64,000 nt of DNA from Gracilariopsis chorda (taxonomy: Eukaryota > Rhodophyta > Florideophyceae > Gracilariales > Gracilariaceae), in NCBI GenBank assembly GCA_003194525.1, contig NBIV01000040.1, positions 186,001 to 250,000 of the forward strand, read 5' to 3'. The number at the start of each line of letters is the position of its first letter. The stretch's first letter is position 1. The notes under the pieces are model-generated. The model was not told the origin of the DNA and ran no database searches. It saw only the letters and a program-made list of their open reading frames with translations. Position numbers and translations under genes: made by a program. This document shows positions 17,486 through 44,279 of this stretch, in pieces.

Positions 17486-17552
17486 GAATGCAGTATCTAC
17501 TCACTCTACAAGTTCTGAGTCAGAACTTGTAGAGTGAGTAGATACTGCATTC
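17486..17552. repeat. Perfect 67-nt palindrome (33-nt arms, 1-nt centre)
   Basis: The arm from 17486 to 17518 (starting GAATGCAGTATCTACTCACT) is exactly reverse-complementary to 17520-17552, with G at 17519 as the centre. The match stops at the next base pair on each side. Such a structure may be a hairpin-type miniature element, a fold-back replication product or a hairpin RNA gene. Confidence 0.9.
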
Positions 17553-25474: not shown

Positions 25475-28400
25475 ATGGTGCGCGAAGGTTCTAAGGTTGA
25501 CAATGACGCCAACGTCGCACAGCATTTCGAGAGCATTAAGGCTGAACGTGAGGCGTATCTTCTACGTGCAGCGAAACGAATAATTCCGATTCAAACTCGT
25601 CAACGCATTGTTGAAGCCGCTCTTCGCTATTTGGAGTCTCGCAGCCGTCAGTCGCAGCCATCCCAATCTCCGTCGCAGAGTATATTCTCACAAGGCCCTA
25701 ATGTGGCTCTAGGACAACTATCTTCTTTCCAAAGTGTTCTTTCAAGCCTTTTGACTGCCGAGCTCCCTCCGGAAACTCTGATTGATGTATGTGTGAGAGC
25801 TACAGATGGGCAGTTTCTTCCCATAGCTCAGAAAGGCCTTTCCCTCCTGGCTACGATTGGCCCAATAGGGGAAAGAAAGTCTGTCAAAACTGAGAACAAG
25901 ACACGGAGCGAACAGGAAGATGAACAGCTCGTCGGTAACGAGAATGAAGAGAACGAAGATCCACAAAATCCCATCAGCAGCAGCTCTACCCCGTCACGCA
26001 ATCAAATACTGGTTCGCCGAACAGGTCAAAGCTTCGTCGATGAGTTCGTTTCCAAACTTACAGAACAGGAAAGCCGCAAGGCAACCCAGGCTCGTTCGAA
26101 TGACATTTTCGTTGTTTCTGTGGCTCGCGAAGTACCTCTTTCAGATCATGCGGCTGAATTCGTTTTCTCTCAGTTGGTTCATCGTATGAGCAAGGTAGAA
26201 CTATTGGAGCTTCCTGCCTTTATATATCAACTGCTATTGTACGCCTCCTCTCGAGGAAACTCATACGTGAAGCGTTGTGTCCTGGTGCACATTGCGCGCG
26301 TTTTCTCCGTCCACGAAGAGAAATCAAGGCAATCTGATGCATTCTCACAGAATCTTCTGGCTGAAGACGAAGATGCTATTGTTGCTTCCACAACGTCCCT
26401 CGCTGATCTTCGCCAAGTACAAGGTACAGCTCTCCTTCACATAGAGTATGCGGTTAAGCAAGACCCATCGCTTTCGGGTGAAATTGTAAGCCTTGCTAAG
26501 GCCGGAGTTGAGACCCCCAAGCACTTTTTGACAGCATTTGGCACTGGCATGGTGTTGTCGCTTGCGAAAACAGTATCTATCCGTACCGATGTGTTGCAAG
26601 TTTTAAGAGAGGTTGTTTCACGATTTGATAAAGAAGTCGTGCTGCGGAAACGCAACCTATTTATGGCCAGAGTGTCTATGAACGATGAAAAGCTGATCAA
26701 TCCATGCAATTCCTTGCTTCACATTGCGGAATGCACATGTGAAAATGGATGGGACTACGTCAAAGAAAGCTTGCTTCAGTTTGCATTTGTACTTCTGGAC
26801 AAACCTTTACCTACTTATTACAGCGAACAGATCTCAGCGTCAGGATCTCTAGTCGATCATCTCTTCATCAAGCTATTCAACGCACATCCTGCTATGAGAA
26901 GTTCTATTCTGGAACAACTTACAACCAGGATTGCTCTCCAAGAAAAGTCAGCCATGCAAGCAATATCTATCATTAAGGTGTTGGCAGAGAAGATTCCCTA
27001 CTTTGTCCTGGAACATATCCATCATATACGAGATGGGATGGAGATCATTGTCAGTCTTCCTCCATGGATGGCGAGTTCTCTAATTCAAGCATACAAGCCA
27101 CTGCTGCTAACTAGACAGGATTTGCAAGATTACTTTCAGCTAATTGTACGCAAGTCTCTGTTTCATCGAGAAGTTTCGAGCAGAGCGGTATCCATTATAG
27201 GATTCTTAACTCTTGTACCAATGAATAAGGTAACTCAAAGCGCACGGAAGAAATCGATTTCGTCTAAATCCCAATCCACTTGTCCATCTAGAAGAGCTGA
27301 AAAGGGAATAGACGGTATCATGGAGTCCTTTCAGCCACTACGCCGTGTATTCTCTTACCCTGCCGCACTGAAAGCTTTTTGGTATATGAACGCAATTCAA
27401 CATCTAAACGCTATCGAGTCTAGACCCGTCATGGAAGCTGTTGCCACGGGTATGTCAGAAGTGTTTGTGAACCACTTGCGTCGCTTTGTCGATGTAACGA
27501 AAGCTCCGTATCTACTACTTGATCACTGTGTGGACATGAACGGACTTGTAGAACCACTTGGGGAGCTTGTGTGGTGCCTTGCTGTAGTCGAATTCAAGAA
27601 GGATCCTGTCGCATACTGTAACTCTTATATACTGGACATTGGAAAAAAAGCTTTCAGGTGTTAGCATCCAAGATTTTGGTATTACAAAAGACGTAGTTAT
27701 AACGACTCAAGCCCAACACAGGGATGATGAAGATTTTGCTAATGCTCCAGAGAATGATGAAAACAACCCCAAGTATGTCCGCAACAAAGTGCGCGCACTT
27801 GGTTCCGTTTGCGAGGCGCTCATCCATGCCGTGTTCATCATTCCAAAGGAACAACAAAAATGGTCGTTCTATTCCGATATCGCTGTTCCTCTGCTGACAT
27901 TGAAGGGGCAATTGTTGGAAATCCTTGGTCACGCGAGGGTCGCATCCGCATCAGATTCTTTTCTTGAGTTGGGCGGGATAGCTACGTTAGAGCGACTACG
28001 TCCTGGTTTGCGACTTATGCTACAGCGCAGTGGAAAGTCATCACGTTCAGGGAAAAAGGGTCAATCTCGAAAAGGAAAAAGCAATGATACACAAGCATCG
28101 AGCGCCCATGCAACGCAAAACAACTTGCACAAATTCGGTGTATTCAATGTTCTAGCGAGTTCTTCTTCGAAACCGTCGCTTCCATTGAAAACTTCGATAC
28201 AGATTCTTCAACAAATGACCGACGCGGAAGTATCAGAGCAGCCCAGTCAAGATATATTTCAGAGCAGAACTCACAGCAAGGAATTTCAGGAGCTCCGTCT
28301 ATATCTTCTGGCGGTAACGAAGAAACATATAGAAAATTTCTCGACAGTTCTGTCAAAACCCGGTCATGACAAAAGCTTTGCAGGCGAAGAGAAGATGAAT

Positions 28401-29801
28401 ACATTAATGCGCTCTGTGAATGTGTTTGTGAACATAGTCATGAGTGACTTTAAGAAGTTTCGTAGGTCATCTTCGGATATTTCCCGCCAAGGCGGTTTGA
28501 AGGCGTTACAAGCTGCAGAATCCTGTACTTCAGTTCTTCCATTCATTATCAGGCATAAACCCAAAGCTCTTTCCACGTTTTGCAAGGCCTTGACACCTGT
28601 GGACTCAGACTTTGACAATCGGACCGAAGCAACAACTCTTGAAACTGCAGTAGAGCTGCTTGAAGGGCTCATTGACAACCTTATTGAAGACGCTATGCTC
28701 AAGGAGGTCACTGTTGCGCTTCATATTCGTGATGTTTTGGTGAAGAGTGCATTCGCAGTTCTAAATGGCCTTGACACAAGATCCGGGTTCCTGACAAAGA
28801 GGGTACAATGGTCTGTAGATGCGCTGTCTAGAAAGAAGATTGCTGATGATCATATAGTGAAGACACTGGTTTGTTCGTGTCTTGTGTATACAGAGAATAA
28901 CAACGACATGAGACGTGCTAACGACCTGTGCGTACGCCTCTTGAGCGTCGTAGGGGATTGCGACGCAAATATGGCAACCCCAGACGAGGATGGGTCTAAT
29001 TGCTTGGATGCAAAGCTTTCATCTGCCGTCGCAATTGAAAAAGGTACATGTTTTCCTGTCGTTGAAGGTATACTGGATGCGATTGAGAGCGCGATATCAG
29101 ACGTGGAATGGTGTCTAAGCAGAATGTCGTCTCTTGAAGCTGCCGCTGCTGGGTCTGAGTTTTCCCTTCCAAGCCAGCCAAAAACCAGAGCGGAGGACAA
29201 ATCAAAACTTCAAGAGGAAGTCGCGAAACAATCCATTCGAGCTGAAGATGCAGCACTTCTACGACTCGAAGGAGTGGTACGTGCGCTGCGGGGATTGACG
29301 ACATGTGCTATTGGAAAATGGGGGCTTCAAGAACGACTTTTGCGACTAGTGACAAAGACATATAAGGTTCTATGCCTGGCCACTGGCATTCAAGCCAAAC
29401 GCAAGGGAGACCCAAGAACATCGTTCATATCTTTAATCAATGAGGTTAAAGGTTTAGCCCCAACGCTCTGGACATATCTTGCGTTCATTGGGGCGGACTC
29501 TATGAATGAAGTTCATCAGCGGAATTCCGGGAGAGCAGCCAGTGAAGCAAGGGTAATGCCACAGTTGATTTACGAAGTCGAAAGGTTTGAAAAGGTTCTC
29601 ATAAGTGCACAGAAGCGAACAACAGTTAGTCTGTTGCGAGGTATGCGCCGAAATATTGCACGAGATTTCCGCATACGCGAGGACCTTCTCCACGATGAAG
29701 ATCAAGAAGAGAGCAATGGGGAGAACAACAACCTTGAGCAACAGAACGAGTCGCGAAACCCTCGTGGTCGCGTGCGTGCGAAACGGCGAAGAGTCTCGTA
29801 A
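25475..29801 (+). CDS. FANCI: FANCI (Fanconi anaemia group I) homologue
   Basis: Two exons, 25475-27657 and 27722-29801, joined by an inferred 64-nt intron (TTTCAG then donor GTGTTA; acceptor CCCAACACAG). Splicing yields 1420 residues; human FANCI has about 1330. FANCI pairs with FANCD2 as a clamp on DNA at interstrand crosslinks and is mono-ubiquitinated there. Family signs are ELPAFIYQLLLYASSRG (solenoid 1), TALLHIEYAVKQDPSLSG, ALGSVCEALIHAVF in exon 2, and a very typical C-terminus: ARVMPQLIYEVERFEKVLIS followed by NIARDFRI. The tail after this is Asp/Glu/Asn-rich and then basic (RVRAKRRR), likely nuclear targeting. I cannot place the ubiquitin-acceptor Lys by eye. The intron donor is weak; the two-frame structure itself is certain. 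Confidence 0.88.
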
Positions 29802-32006: not shown

Positions 32007-32833
32007 ATGGCAACAATCGTATGGATGGCAGTCTTCTTCTTGCTCATGATTGAGCTTGTTATCACTGCACTTCTCGTTCTTCCGCTACCGCGTGTCTTGC
32101 GGAAATTCATAGCCCGCAAGATATTTAACTATGACCTAGGACGGCGAATTCGATTTGTTTCAAACTTCATCATTTTGGGTCTTATTCTCGCGGTTTCGGA
32201 TGCAGTTCAGACCCTTCGCCATTTGGAGCAAAAGGAGGGAACAGAGGCCAGTTCTTCAGCATACAACGATGCTCGTATCGGATATATGACTGTTAGTATC
32301 GACAAGCAGCGTAAATTCCGAGCGGAACGAAATGTGAGTTTCTCATCGACTTTTTCACATGCCGATCACCTTGTGAGATAGGCGTGCCAGATCTAACCTT
32401 CCCCATTTCCTTAACAACGCGCCTTGCATTCAATGCGGCTTGAAACCAACGGTCCGCAATATTTCATTCAAACATTTGTTTTATAGAGTAAGTTTGGCAA
32501 GACACGAGCTACAAAGAAAGGAATCCATATGGAGTTCTTCGAATATCTAGACACTAACAAAGAGCGATTCTGTTTTTCATCGTACTTCTATCAGTGTATC
32601 TCGCGGGATTTGCATTGACCCTAATGTTCGTTATCGCCCGCATTGTCGAACTGATGCAAGAAGTTGTGAATGTTGAAGAGCAAAAAGAAGTTGTGGAACA
32701 ACGCCTCAAAGACGTGGGCGAGATCGCATCGACCACCACGAGCGTTCCTGCTACTGATATCACTTCCAAGGAAGAGTCAACGACTCTTCGTAAGCGCACC
32801 CCCGCAGCTAGCAACGCGGATAAGCATGATTAA
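32007..32833 (+). CDS. BAP31-like ER membrane protein, with a 1-nt exon
   Basis: Three exons, 32007-32333, 32487 alone, and 32595-32833, encoding 188 residues. Introns are 153 nt (donor GTGAGT, acceptor TTGTTTTATAG) and 107 nt (donor GTAAGT, branch CTAAC, acceptor CTTCTATCAG). BAP31 proteins are ER sorting and quality-control factors with three membrane spans and a cytosolic coiled coil. Span 1 is about residues 5-27 and span 2 about 50-66; the conserved link is KQRKFRAERN, followed by MYLAGFALTLMFVI (span 3) and a coiled coil ELMQEVVNVEEQKEVVEQRL. The Met of MYLAGF is encoded by A from the micro-exon plus TG from exon 3. Without it, the frame ends after 8 foreign residues or a few dozen. The C-terminus DKHD is not a canonical KKXX signal. 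Confidence 0.82.
32487..32487 (+). other. Single-nucleotide exon of the BAP31-like gene
   Basis: The context is TTGTTTTATAG, then A, then GTAAGTTTGG. The A is flanked by an excellent acceptor and an excellent donor. It is the only way I find to join RAERN to YLAGF in frame, giving RAERNMYLAGF as in plant and animal BAP31 proteins. Confidence 0.75.
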
Positions 32834-33615: not shown

Positions 33616-34397
33616 AAATGCTGATTGAAATTCGCAGTGTGGCCAACGCGCTCTCTGGTTGCATTAACCCTTATCTCGCCAAGCGTCCGAGAAGCTCGTC
33701 TGATTTTCACGGCAAGACAGAATTGAGAAGCCCGACTGTGGGCGTCCGTCTTCTGAGCGCGGTGCAAAGCCGAGCACAAACGAAGAGCTTTGTCTGTTAC
33801 AGACCTACCAAGGATACGGCAGAGCGACACTCTCAGTAAGAAGCTCTTTACCTCTTCAGCTGTGCGCAACTCGGCATTGAAACTGTAAGGGTTACTACTT
33901 GACACCTTGCTGTCAATGAACAGAGTTTGGGCGAACGAGGCTAAAGGCGAATAAGGCTACCAGGATCTGGCTTCGACTCACGTGTCACGCTTTACATCGC
34001 TTCTACGTTTAGGATGACTGCAGTTTTTTGTCATCTCGGAGCTTTTCAGTTTGCAGATGCATTGGCAGTGCGGCACTCCGGAACGGAAGATATCGGAACT
34101 GGATCTGCTCGTCGGAAAATATTAGCTTCTGCATCCTTAGTCTATTGTCTCGCCTGATGATTATTTCTGGTAAACGGTACCCTTGGTAGCATACGTAAAG
34201 GTCTTTCTGTTCAGTGAAGATTTCAGTTTTATTCAAATACAGCTGGTTCATTGCATATCATCATTGGTTTGGCGTGGCCGTTCTCCTTTTCGAATTCAGA
34301 AATCGTCAGACGGGTGTCTAGGACTACTGTCTCAAGCATGATCCCTTGATCACGAAGCATACCTGGCAAAAGCGTGAACATAGCGCTTACCTGTCAA
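33616..34397. other. Divergent region (WBP2-like / TrmA-like)
   Basis: About 780 bases with both promoters. A minus-strand frame upstream of the WBP2-like gene (33519-33905) starts at GTG, has no family feature, and is not needed for that protein. Confidence 0.35.
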
Positions 34398-36151
34398 ATG
34401 ATCTATACTTCCAGGTTAGATGTTGCTAAAGCGTCCTTCATTCCAAACGTCTTTCGGTTGCCAGTTACAAGAAGATGGCCCGTCAATCTCCGCCCTCCAG
34501 GTCAAAGGCAGCTTTTTGTGCCAAGGGCAGTAGCTACATCATCTTCTGGGCAATCAGCTCCGGAAGAAACAGAAGGGTTTCCTCTACGGAAAGGAGATAC
34601 AATCCAAGCCAAGATTACAAGAATTGCATACGGTGGCGCAGCCGTCGGCGAAATCGTGCACCCTGACAACCTGTTGCCAGCAGACAAGCTTATACCCGTC
34701 TATGGTCCAAAGGGTGCTTGTCCAGGTGACACCATTGAATGCAATGTTACCAAAGTGCGTCGGCGAAAACGTGATCCAGAAGCTTACGTCGTGAACAATA
34801 CAGGCAGTACGTCATCGGATACTCCTACTCGTACATACGCAGAGGTGAGCTTTCGAAAACTTCTGGTCCCGTCACCTGTCACAGTACAGGCTCCGTGTGC
34901 ACACTTTGGAAATCATCATCTAGGCGGCGGGGGCTGTGGCGGTTGTACTTCGATGCACATCACATACTCGATGCAGCTTGAGCAAAAACAACGCCAGCTG
35001 GAATCCCTGTTTGCAGTTTTGAAGGAAGAGTATGGTGTCGCAGATTTCGCTGTTATACCGTGCCGAGACACCTTAGGCTATCGAAACAAAATGGAATTTA
35101 GCTACGGACGGAAGTGGTATACCAGACCTATGAAGAGAGAAACAAGACTGGATGCAACAGAGCCTGAGTATGCTCTAGGCCTACATGCTCCACAGCGCTT
35201 CGATAAGGTAGTTTCAATAACCGAGTGTCATATACAACCGTCGGTGGCAAACAAGATTTTGAACTTTGTCCGAGAAGAGGCCCAACGGTTATTGCTGGAG
35301 CCGTACGATACTAAGCAAGATACTGGATATTTGCGAAATATTGCTATACGCACATCCACAAACTCAAAAGGACAGATAGAAGTGATGGTGAACATAATAA
35401 CGAGCCCCTGTGATGTTCCAAACAGGCTCAAACCTCTAGCGCAAAGCATCAAATACACCTTTCCTGAAGTCGTTTGCGTTTTGCAGAATCTTCGAGGCGT
35501 CAAATCCAGTTTCTCTGTCGATGAGAGCCAAGAACGTCTTCTTACCGGTGACAGGCGCTACATAGAACAGGAACTGTGCGGCTTAACCTTTCGAATATCG
35601 GCCAACTCGTTCTTTCAGACGAATGCGGACCAAGCTGAGGTCTTGTACGAGAATGTTCGTCGTGCTGCGAAACTTACACCAGACGACGTGGTGCTTGACC
35701 TTTTCTGCGGGACTGGAACCATCTCTCTGTGTTTGGCACGAAGCGCGAAACAAGTATACGGCATCGATGTTGTAGCTGCCGCAATCAATGACGCTAGGAA
35801 GAACGCACTGGTGAATAGGATTACGAACGCGACGTTTGAAGAAGGAAATCTGGATAAGCTGAAGTCGTCGAAGGGCACAAAGGCACTCCTTGAACCGGAC
35901 GTCATAGTGGTAGACCCCCGCGCGCAGGGCTACATCCAGATCTGGTCAAGTATATCGCAAGTGCTGAAGTGAAACGAGTGGTATACGTCAGTTGTAACCC
36001 TGTGTCTCAAGTAAGAGATGTCAACCAACTACTGGCTCTTATGCCAGGGAAATTCAAAGTGGCGTGGATTCAGCCCATTGATATGTTCCCAAACACGCCT
36101 CATATAGAATGCATTGTGACACTAGAAGCACAAGCAACTACACCAGTTTAA
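34398..36151 (+). CDS. TrmA/RumA-type RNA (uracil-5)-methyltransferase, organellar-type, with a 1-nt frameshift
   Basis: The start is ATG 34398; the frame runs upstream only from GTG. The first 60 residues are basic and hydroxylated, like a plastid or mitochondrial presequence. A TRAM-like domain follows (KGDTIQAKITRIAYGGAAVG), then the Fe-S Cys cluster CAHFG...GGCGGC (near residues 167-182), the SAM motif DLFCGTGTISL (near 434), and VYVSCNP with the nucleophilic Cys (codon 35992-35994) and the late TPHIECIVTL. Enzymes of this family make m5U in rRNA or tRNA. At 35915-35919 a run of five C breaks the frame inside the DPPRAG motif: upstream reads in one frame, downstream continues perfectly in the next. 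One extra C would give about 584 residues. Either a real null allele or a sequence error. Confidence 0.85.
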
Positions 36152-42036: not shown

Positions 42037-44279
42037 GTCCAGTCTTCTCTTAATATTTTCTTTGTTTTTTATGTCCGCTACCAAGGGGTATGTTGTGACG
42101 TTTGTTGATCACAGATAATGGTTTTCATTGTCTATTGTATCTTTTTCCAACAGACATGACTGAACTGTTGTTTGTTCAGTACGCTCATTATTATTTTCTG
42201 GGTGGGCCCTGACGGCCGATGTAAACCTTGATTACTTTCACTGACTATCATCAGAATGGGATTTTCTGAATAGGTTTTGGGTTTCTGCATAGTTGTGCTC
42301 GTAAAAATATGATATCCGTCACTTAGTTGTGAACAAAGTGGTGGCGGGGAGAAGGGATTGTTTGTTTAGGTTGCGCTCATCCATAAAAAGCTCGCCAATC
42401 TAAGAAACGTGAATAGTCTATCGATTTCTCTTTGAAGCAGAGTAAGTAGGGACACGATTACCAAAGTAGAATCAGCCATGGCTTGCTCAGAACGTATGTC
42501 TTCTTTGAGAGATGAGAGCAATAATATTTGGACGAATCCCTCATGTTCGAAGATACCGTCGGGAATGCTCCAGGCATGATGATCAGTTTGCTGGTAGACT
42601 TGTTTTGAGCAAACTGTCGTGCTGACATTATAACCGACACTAGAACTGACAGTACGACTGGTGCATTTATGAAGAAGTGCAACTAAGTTGCTGACAATAG
42701 CATAGTAGTACTTGGTTTAGCTTTATTGTACGTGGTAGCGCGCCGTGTAGAGAGCATCTACGCAGTAGGAGAGGCCGCGAGAGCTCTATATAAGAGCTCG
42801 CAGAGCGATCAGTAAAGAAAGAACGACAGACAGGCGTCTGGTTGAAGCTCTCTGCGCCTCCCTCCTCTCCCATCATCACACAAACAACTCGAACAAGTTG
42901 AACAAATGGCCAAACACGAGGTCCTTACTAGGTATTTGGCTTGTGTACCTGTGTCGCAGGTACAGAAATCATTGCGATATCAAATCGAAGATATGACTGT
43001 ATGCGATGAAGGCTGGCTTTCATGACAGACTGAGAGGCCAATTCTTTTGGCTCCCTTTGGATGCTCAGGGACGGAGGATCTGCGTCAGACGGATCAGTGT
43101 GTGGTGCCACTAAAATGAAAATAGCGCCACGGAACGTCTTGGTACAGTAAACCATGACTGAATGCTTTTTTCTTCTTTACTGCGGGCGGGCAATGTCCAA
43201 TTACGAGTTTGGCTTACCAACTTGATGGGCAACTGCCTGCCTCGAAGACTATGTTCCCAAGGCAAGCCCAGTCGCGGACCCACCCGGATTGGGGTTAGCA
43301 GGACGACCGGCGCGACGCGGCGGGAAGATCACGTTCAGCCAAAAAAGGGACAGCCACAATCGTTTCTTCCATCGCAATACTAACCCAACAGAAAGTCGCT
43401 CTGCACGGCAACTCAGAACTCCTCACGACAGCTTTACGGAGTGTGGGAGTAACAAGGTTGGCTCTCTTCAACTTCAAAGCATTTTGTATCTTCCAAGCAG
43501 CGATATCAAAATCCCTGAGCCCCAGATTATCTAACAGAGAATGGAATCTATCTATCTGTACTGACCAAAGGTATCTAGATAGATATCTAGCTAGAGAGAG
43601 AGCGCGCGGATGTGCTCATGAACAGGAGCACTTGTTGGTTGAATATGCAAAATTTGCAGTTGAAACCAAGGGCTTTCCCTCTGCAGGGTACCTTTGGTAG
43701 CCTTCCACCGCCGCTACCTTGCTCCGCACGGTAGCCTTGCATCTGGCCGGTCGGGACGTCGAAAACAACGGGATACCAGGGCCACCAGACATGCAGAGTT
43801 AAAGGCTGAAGCTACATTTCATGAACCTGACCGGATCAAGGACACTGAAAATCTACCGAGGGCACACTTCTGTATTTCGGAGTTGGAAACCTCTCCGTGT
43901 GTTACAATGCCGTGTCTACATGTCGCGAAGCCCGAATGTCATTTAAGAAAGTATCAGAAGCTGCAAACTAAGCTTCCCTGGACGAGTCTCGGATCATTGG
44001 CCAGTGATCGTCAGCTTCCAATAGGGTATCCGCGGTGCGTGATTGTTGCGAAAGGTATTGTTAAAATCGCGAGCCCGCGGGTGACGGATGTCCTTATACC
44101 GATAGTCCTGGTTTGAGTCCATTTTCGGAAAGGCTGGGGCCGTGGGGAGGGTCCTGAGTCAGTTTTTCAGGTCAAGATCCTGTATCTGCGCATCACCTGG
44201 GGTAGCAATTGCTAGCTATTTTACGAGCTCAGATTGTGGTTTATCCTTTATGCTGTCGTAGCATTGCATACTCGTCGGC
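42037..44279. other. Gene-poor stretch
   Basis: About 2.2 kb. It includes the LTR-like fragment at 42691-42894 and a short GATA/CTAG-rich microsatellite-like run at 43548-43606. The frame 43694-44116 starts at ATG 43694 but has no recognisable feature. Confidence 0.4.
42691..42894 (+). mobile_element. Possible solo LTR or promoter-bearing miniature element
   Basis: A 204-base segment is flanked by the 6-base direct repeat AAGTTG (42685-42690 and 42895-42900). Inside is TATATAAG at 42787-42794 framed by two GAGCTC words, followed about 50 bases later by a CT-rich stretch, the layout of an LTR promoter and R region. TG...CA ends are not clear and no primer-binding site follows, so this is tentative. 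Confidence 0.35.

Follow-up and report, generated by a model that had tools for sequence, protein, structure and literature searches.

Exons of a single nucleotide have, as far as we found, been documented in few nuclear genes, from land plants and one fungal genus. APC11 is described as having such an exon in Arabidopsis and most land plants (PMC4674806, PMC8831610), VPS55 of land plants as having a deeply conserved 1-nt microexon (PMC8831610), and a further case is reported for CYP621A of Fusarium (PMC12940212). The original prediction for the locus studied here rightly named APC11 as a described one-base exon, but its account was incomplete, as VPS55 and CYP621A are also known. Single bases between two introns are reported as well for placozoan cox1 (PMC5436844) and fungal mitochondrial rnl (PMC12308204). 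For red algae we found no one-base exon in the literature searched, which lacks most subscription papers, as judged by titles and the beginnings of abstracts.

The BAP31 gene of Gracilariopsis chorda is, judging from DNA and protein sequences, a very probable and well-supported further case in this very small class. As described, the APC11 exon resembles the one proposed for BAP31 in being an A between GT-AG introns of a nuclear gene, in being needed for the frame and in having been missed by annotation; it differs in gene and lineage, and its splicing was demonstrated by cDNA and reporter constructs, whereas that of BAP31 is deduced. VPS55 is likewise nuclear, encodes a membrane protein, has a GTRAGT directly after the exon and was missed by annotation, but is reported to make a form without the microexon as well in some lineages, while for BAP31 no alternative form is known. 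In the CYP621A report, as here, the flanking exons are one base out of phase within a conserved motif and a contiguous relative served as guide; there, however, the exon is a G, the middle base of a Gly codon, found in one fungal genus and confirmed with SRA data. The cox1 and rnl bases share with BAP31 the position between two introns; those introns are organellar group I or group II introns and not spliceosomal.

Deep conservation in one more eukaryotic lineage would demonstrate that exons this small can persist stably for long periods, and BAP31 would provide a natural system for studying how the cell deals successively with two splice sites that a single base separates. The case also offers a cheap way to detect one-base exons without RNA, namely through the phase of ORF fragments that read through a splice site.

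The BAP31 gene and its possible joins

The window, i.e. the whole stretch of DNA analysed, comprises 64,000 bases (186001-250000) of contig C40 (393,212 bases), from a genome of 91.3 Mb in 1081 contigs. The protein spliced as described below belongs to the BAP31 family: it matches the Bap31 transmembrane region (PF05529) over positions 2-136 of the 138 in the profile with 93.5 bits, above the curated cut-off of 22.7, and its best database match is BWQ96_03858 of G. chorda, a red alga as the original prediction had assumed. Coding exon 1 (32007-32333, plus strand) is an open reading frame of codons 1-109 that ends with RAERN in phase 0 and that gave a PF05529 match of 54.9 bits on its own, at the corresponding place of C40. 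Coding exon 3 (32595-32833, plus strand) starts with TGTATCTCGCGGG, of which the TG would belong to a Met codon and the remainder reads YLAGF...DKHD up to the stop. When exon 1 (ending AAT|GTGAGT) is joined directly to exon 3 (after CTATCAG|TGTAT), the frame is short by one base; measured against the conserved protein, the phases of the two flanking exons differ by exactly one base.

The missing base can be supplied by an A at 32487 (plus strand), in the context TTTTATAG|A|GTAAGT, through which AAT-A-TG-TAT completes an ATG; the A would open the Met codon that stands between those for N109 and Y111. The 153-nt intron 1 (32334-32486, plus strand) would run from the donor GTGAGT (32334-32339) via a CTAAC box (32393-32397) to the acceptor TTTTATAG, and the 107-nt intron 2 (32488-32594, plus strand) from GTAAGT (32488-32493) via CTAAC (32554-32558) to CTATCAG. 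On the strength of the phase arithmetic, the enumeration of joins and the conserved N-x-Y spacing we consider it highly probable that this single A is the second of three coding exons in the gene and lies between two ordinary GT-AG introns. The layout first proposed for 32334-32594 agrees with sequence and coordinates, apart from small corrections. It had been claimed that no AG occurs between the first CTAAC box and TTTTATAG, and inspection of the sequence indeed revealed none ending between 32390 and 32486; both of the CTAAC boxes are present, the first at 32393-32397 and not, as given at the time, at 32392-32396.

Splicing through the A (junction string GAACGAAAT-A-TGTATCTCGCGG) yields 188 residues with RAERN-M-YLAGF. 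Skipping it (GAACGAAAT-TGTATCTCGCGG) truncates the protein as predicted, to 116 aa, with 7 foreign residues and not about 8; retention of intron 2 gives 152 aa without the third membrane span, which confirms the expectation that the protein would end before that span, and retention of intron 1 gives 124 aa.

We enumerated all GT-AG and GC-AG joins with one or two introns (donors at 32290-32599, acceptors at 32320-32599, introns of at least 40 nt). Eight one-intron and 275 two-intron joins were in frame to the stop, and RAERN was retained in 2 and 71 of these, respectively. The sole join with RAERN-x-YLAGF was GTGAGT(32334)-AG(32486)-A-GTAAGT(32488)-AG(32594). Two residues at the site resulted from four two-intron joins with GC donors (A-L, F-V, I-V and V-M) and from a single intron (32338-32594) whose donor lies 4 nt downstream (AATGTGA|GTTTCT, junction string GAACGAAAT-GTGA-TGTATCTCGCGG). 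This single intron is GT-AG, is in frame and keeps all conserved residues, giving 189 residues with RAERN-V-M-YLAGF, i.e. with an extra valine. The original prediction, that a 1-nt exon is required for an intact protein, overlooked it, and holds in the sense that only the join through the A yields the conserved N-x-Y spacing. A non-canonical single intron (e.g. TG...AG) could also make use of the GTG repeated at both ends (AAT[GTG]AGT and CA[GTG]TAT), which gives RAERN-V-YLAGF, a protein of the right length.

Scored against a profile built from 20 contiguous relatives, the protein with the one-base exon reached 270.1 bits, the GTG-repeat product 267.4 (2.7 bits lower) and the product with the extra valine 263.2; on the same profile the public model obtained 207.2 bits and the skip product 172.5. 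The GTG-repeat join fits no GT-AG or GC-AG boundary, and valine occurs at the site in none of 37 contiguous relatives (see below); we give it hardly any credence.

The sequence around the A is of the AG-N-GT type (TTTTATAG-A-GTAAGT) with splice-site-like surroundings, and its base yields the conserved residue. The frequency of such strings was estimated in 199,451 random 261-base segments (both strands, inner 171 bases searched, BAP31 gene masked) from 87 sources of the G. chorda genome; most of the segments are non-intronic, and some of the sources overlap. YAG-A-GTRAGT was present in 0.07% of these segments, YAG-A-GTRNGY in 0.23%, and YAG-[A/C/T]-GTRNGY, which allows any base giving M or L, in 1.2%. 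In the 64-kb window, YAGAGTRAGT occurs four times on both strands, against 0.44 expected, and is not a unique string; the BAP31 copy sits where one base is missing. The other copies lie at 17499-17508 (minus strand), 17530-17539 (plus strand) and 42438-42447 (plus strand), two of them forming an inverted pair.

Spacing and phase in related proteins

Three protein searches returned 88 different proteins (60 in one, 12 and 31, overlapping, in the others). The comparison with related BAP31 genes that had been suggested as a check was run on these proteins, and all 37 contiguous ones, which span the site without a break, show a single residue between N and Y (M in 23, L in 12, I and S in one each, V in none); two residues were found in 0 of the 88. 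In 20 of the 88 the N is followed by V (VR in 12, VS in 5, VG in 2 and VC in 1), including P0010 of the window species. The other 31 consist of the public models P0001 and P0006, 23 exon-3 ORFs that include YL and 6 ORFs that start within exon 3.

We take the 20 N-V proteins for translations of genomic ORFs that extend into the intron. In every case the residue after their V is R, S, G or C and hence encodable by NGT, which is compatible with a GTNNGT donor directly after the N. Since a GTNNGT donor always has a second GT at +5, an escape of the kind possible at 32338 is open to the relatives too. The residue following V-[RSGC], however, varies freely in the 20 fragments (F, L, R, A, V, W, T, K, S, Y, M or stop), which gives no sign of the +5 GT being conserved as a donor. 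The extra residue expected from the shifted donor is seen in 0 of the 37 contiguous proteins, among them P0005, whose genomic copy P0038 does have the intron.

Four contiguous relatives bear more directly on splicing. P0002 comes from EukProt as a TRINITY transcript and clusters with Agarophyton chilense (support 99/90); P0003, P0004 and P0005 are on contigs of 1615-1787 bases and are presumably cDNAs. All four read RAERN-M-YLAGF. P0005 is identical to the genomic P0038 over 104 residues of exon 1, where P0038 runs into the intron (RAERN-VSYS); P0005 thus represents either spliced cDNA or a gene copy that lacks the intron. P0003 shares 94% identity with the intron-bearing P0014 in exon 1 and 81% with P0062, a fragment with the phase gap, in exon 3. 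A tree of 46 rows placed these proteins among rows with the intron or the phase gap, P0003 with P0014, P0020, P0039 and P0062 (96/79) and P0005 with P0038; weak support affects many of its inner branches, 19 of 43 being open. From their place in this tree, the close relatives other than Gracilariopsis and Agarophyton would be red algae. The single residue (M) in P0002-P0005 is what a one-base insert would require and what the shifted donor would forbid.

The phase of exon 3 can be read from ORFs that extend upstream of it. Of the 23 exon-3 ORFs including YL, 17 begin with M-YL, the window's own among them, and are uninformative on the phase, as such a start may be a GTG, as in the window's own P0061, or an ATG. 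All six that reach upstream have V before YL: I-V in P0059 and P0081, L-V in P0062, A-V in P0064, T-V in P0065 and S-V in P0083. Each pair is compatible with NYA-G|TG-TAT, with codons deduced from the protein, so that the intron would end in YAG and exon 3 would start at the second base of a codon. The reading Q-M, expected from CAG|ATG-TAT, was found in 0 of the 6. For four of these fragments there is an exon-1 fragment ending in RAERN-V on a contig of equal size (6137, 1311, 22139 and 74809 bases).

The one-base gap thus appears to be conserved in the relatives, and they may well fill it with 1-nt exons of their own. Their BAP31 DNA was not found in scans of genome contigs and viral contigs. 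A codable YAG-A-GTRNGT is present in 3 of the 20 intron-1 translations, against 0.85 expected, a marginal excess (shuffle test, P 0.048).

The gap might also be an error of the assembly, with a base missing at the edge of an exon and one ordinary intron in reality; long-read assemblies can carry one-base errors. As six other genomic fragments appear to share it, four of them with the matching exon 1 on an equally long contig, it is hardly an assembly slip, and we regard this explanation as extremely improbable. P0010 and P0061, on a contig of 19,254 bases, carry the window's readings on both sides, though P0061 starts at M and the pair adds little.

The public G. chorda model BWQ96_03858 (P0001), which could be reconstructed exactly, joins 32274 to 32595 (junction string AACGATGCTC-TGTATCTCGCGG); it uses the same exon-3 acceptor with the poor donor GTATCG (32275-32280, plus strand), by which the phase is repaired, and replaces 21 residues, DKQRKFRAERN included, by one L. 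The A. chilense model (P0006) jumps from RAERN to EVVNVEE, thereby losing the 22 residues of the third span, and is probably misannotated. Both models break at the junction, as a hidden one-base exon predicts. The G. chorda BAP31 of 188 residues is absent among the 60 matches listed, where only the 168-residue public model is found; RNA-seq runs of this species (SRR21594546-SRR21594568, PRJNA872288) are cited by PMC10853006. The join through the A corrects this model and probably that of A. chilense too.

Splice sites and probable order of intron removal

Local splice sites were learnt from 13 split protein-domain matches elsewhere in the genome (pairs picked by eye), 10 of which were resolved; UBC_C12, PSM_C55 and RAS_C205 were left unsolved. 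The donor was forced in four of the ten (UBC_C115, MC_C216 and RAS_C16 by a single solution, PSM_C14 by a shared donor) and chosen by a consensus filter in the other six. The resulting donors were GTAAGT (3), GTACGT (5) and GTACGC (2), in introns of 64-235 nt; a CTRAY box was present in nine introns and lay 21-49 nt from the end in eight of those nine.

With the small matrix derived from these ten donors, the donor at 32488 scores 5.23, the highest of all GTs at 32270-32600. GTGAGT at 32334 is moderate with 0.95, all ten local donors having A at +3; 6.7% of the plus-strand GTs of the window match or exceed it, and GTACTT at 32582 scores 1.94. The GTTTCT at 32338 (32338-32343, plus strand) scores as low as -6.36, and 65% of the plus-strand GTs of the window are as good or better. 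Considering this score together with the spacing in the relatives, we hold a single intron from 32338 to be quite unlikely. In intron 1, 94 nt separate the branch box from the acceptor, more than in eight of the nine local introns with a box; in intron 2 the distance is 41 nt. A coding-potential intron finder was dropped, since of its 12 candidate joins three were kept and none was convincing.

For the join through the A, we infer both the use of this base by the cell and the order of removal. The normal spliceosome would take out the two introns one after the other, because two splice sites round a single base can hardly be occupied together. Intron 2 would probably be removed first, having the strongest donor and a box 41 nt from its acceptor; this would leave intron 1 with an ordinary acceptor, TTTTATAG|ATGTAT, and the reverse order would rebuild a donor A|GTAAGT. 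The final join, AAT-A-TG-TAT, would restore Met110 where the third membrane span starts. Removal in turn is also discussed by Guo and Liu, who cite the 9-nt exon of potato invertase, where the second intron goes first (PMC4674806).

Skipping of the A, always or variably, would leave mostly frame-shifted RNA, as a regulatory switch or as the mark of a dying gene. The skip is a simple GT-AG intron (32334-32594) leading to an early stop, and a second BAP31-like gene exists in the genome, with RAERNFYLASF at the site. Exon 3 is nevertheless open to its end and the open frame is conserved in other genomic fragments, which a dead gene would hardly keep; this possibility seems very improbable to us.

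The one-base exon of BAP31 is probably ancient. The arrangement is probably older than the intron-bearing fragments, since every informative one of them reads as having the two halves of the gap. A second intron could have entered the Met codon between its A and its TG; alternatively, a base could have been lost and then replaced from the intron, as is proposed in the report on CYP621A (PMC12940212). Contiguous proteins inside the intron-bearing part of the tree (P0007 and the group of P0008, P0011, P0012, P0013, P0015 and P0019) may, on weak branches, reflect joint loss of both introns. We think it reasonably likely that the one-base exon has a single origin in an early ancestor of the red algae and that many lineages of red seaweeds retained it in BAP31, with later joint intron losses. 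If so, red algae would have their first reported one-base exon, which would rank with the oldest known, and the spliceosome would be able to process such an exon dependably over very long periods.

Some other features were noted. The second BAP31-like gene (G000:C25:96437-96853, minus strand) gave its match within a single open frame. The window as a whole has no Rfam matches. At 25475-29801 (plus strand) it contains a FANCI gene spread over two long ORFs that differ in frame and have a 26-base overlap, one (25475-27664) with FANCI_S1 and S2 and the other (27639-29801) with FANCI_S4; an intron, a frameshift or an assembly indel may account for the frame change. Downstream of BAP31, an ORF at 34374-35972 (plus strand) resembles tRNA (uracil-5-)-methyltransferase (PF05958, 38.8 bits).
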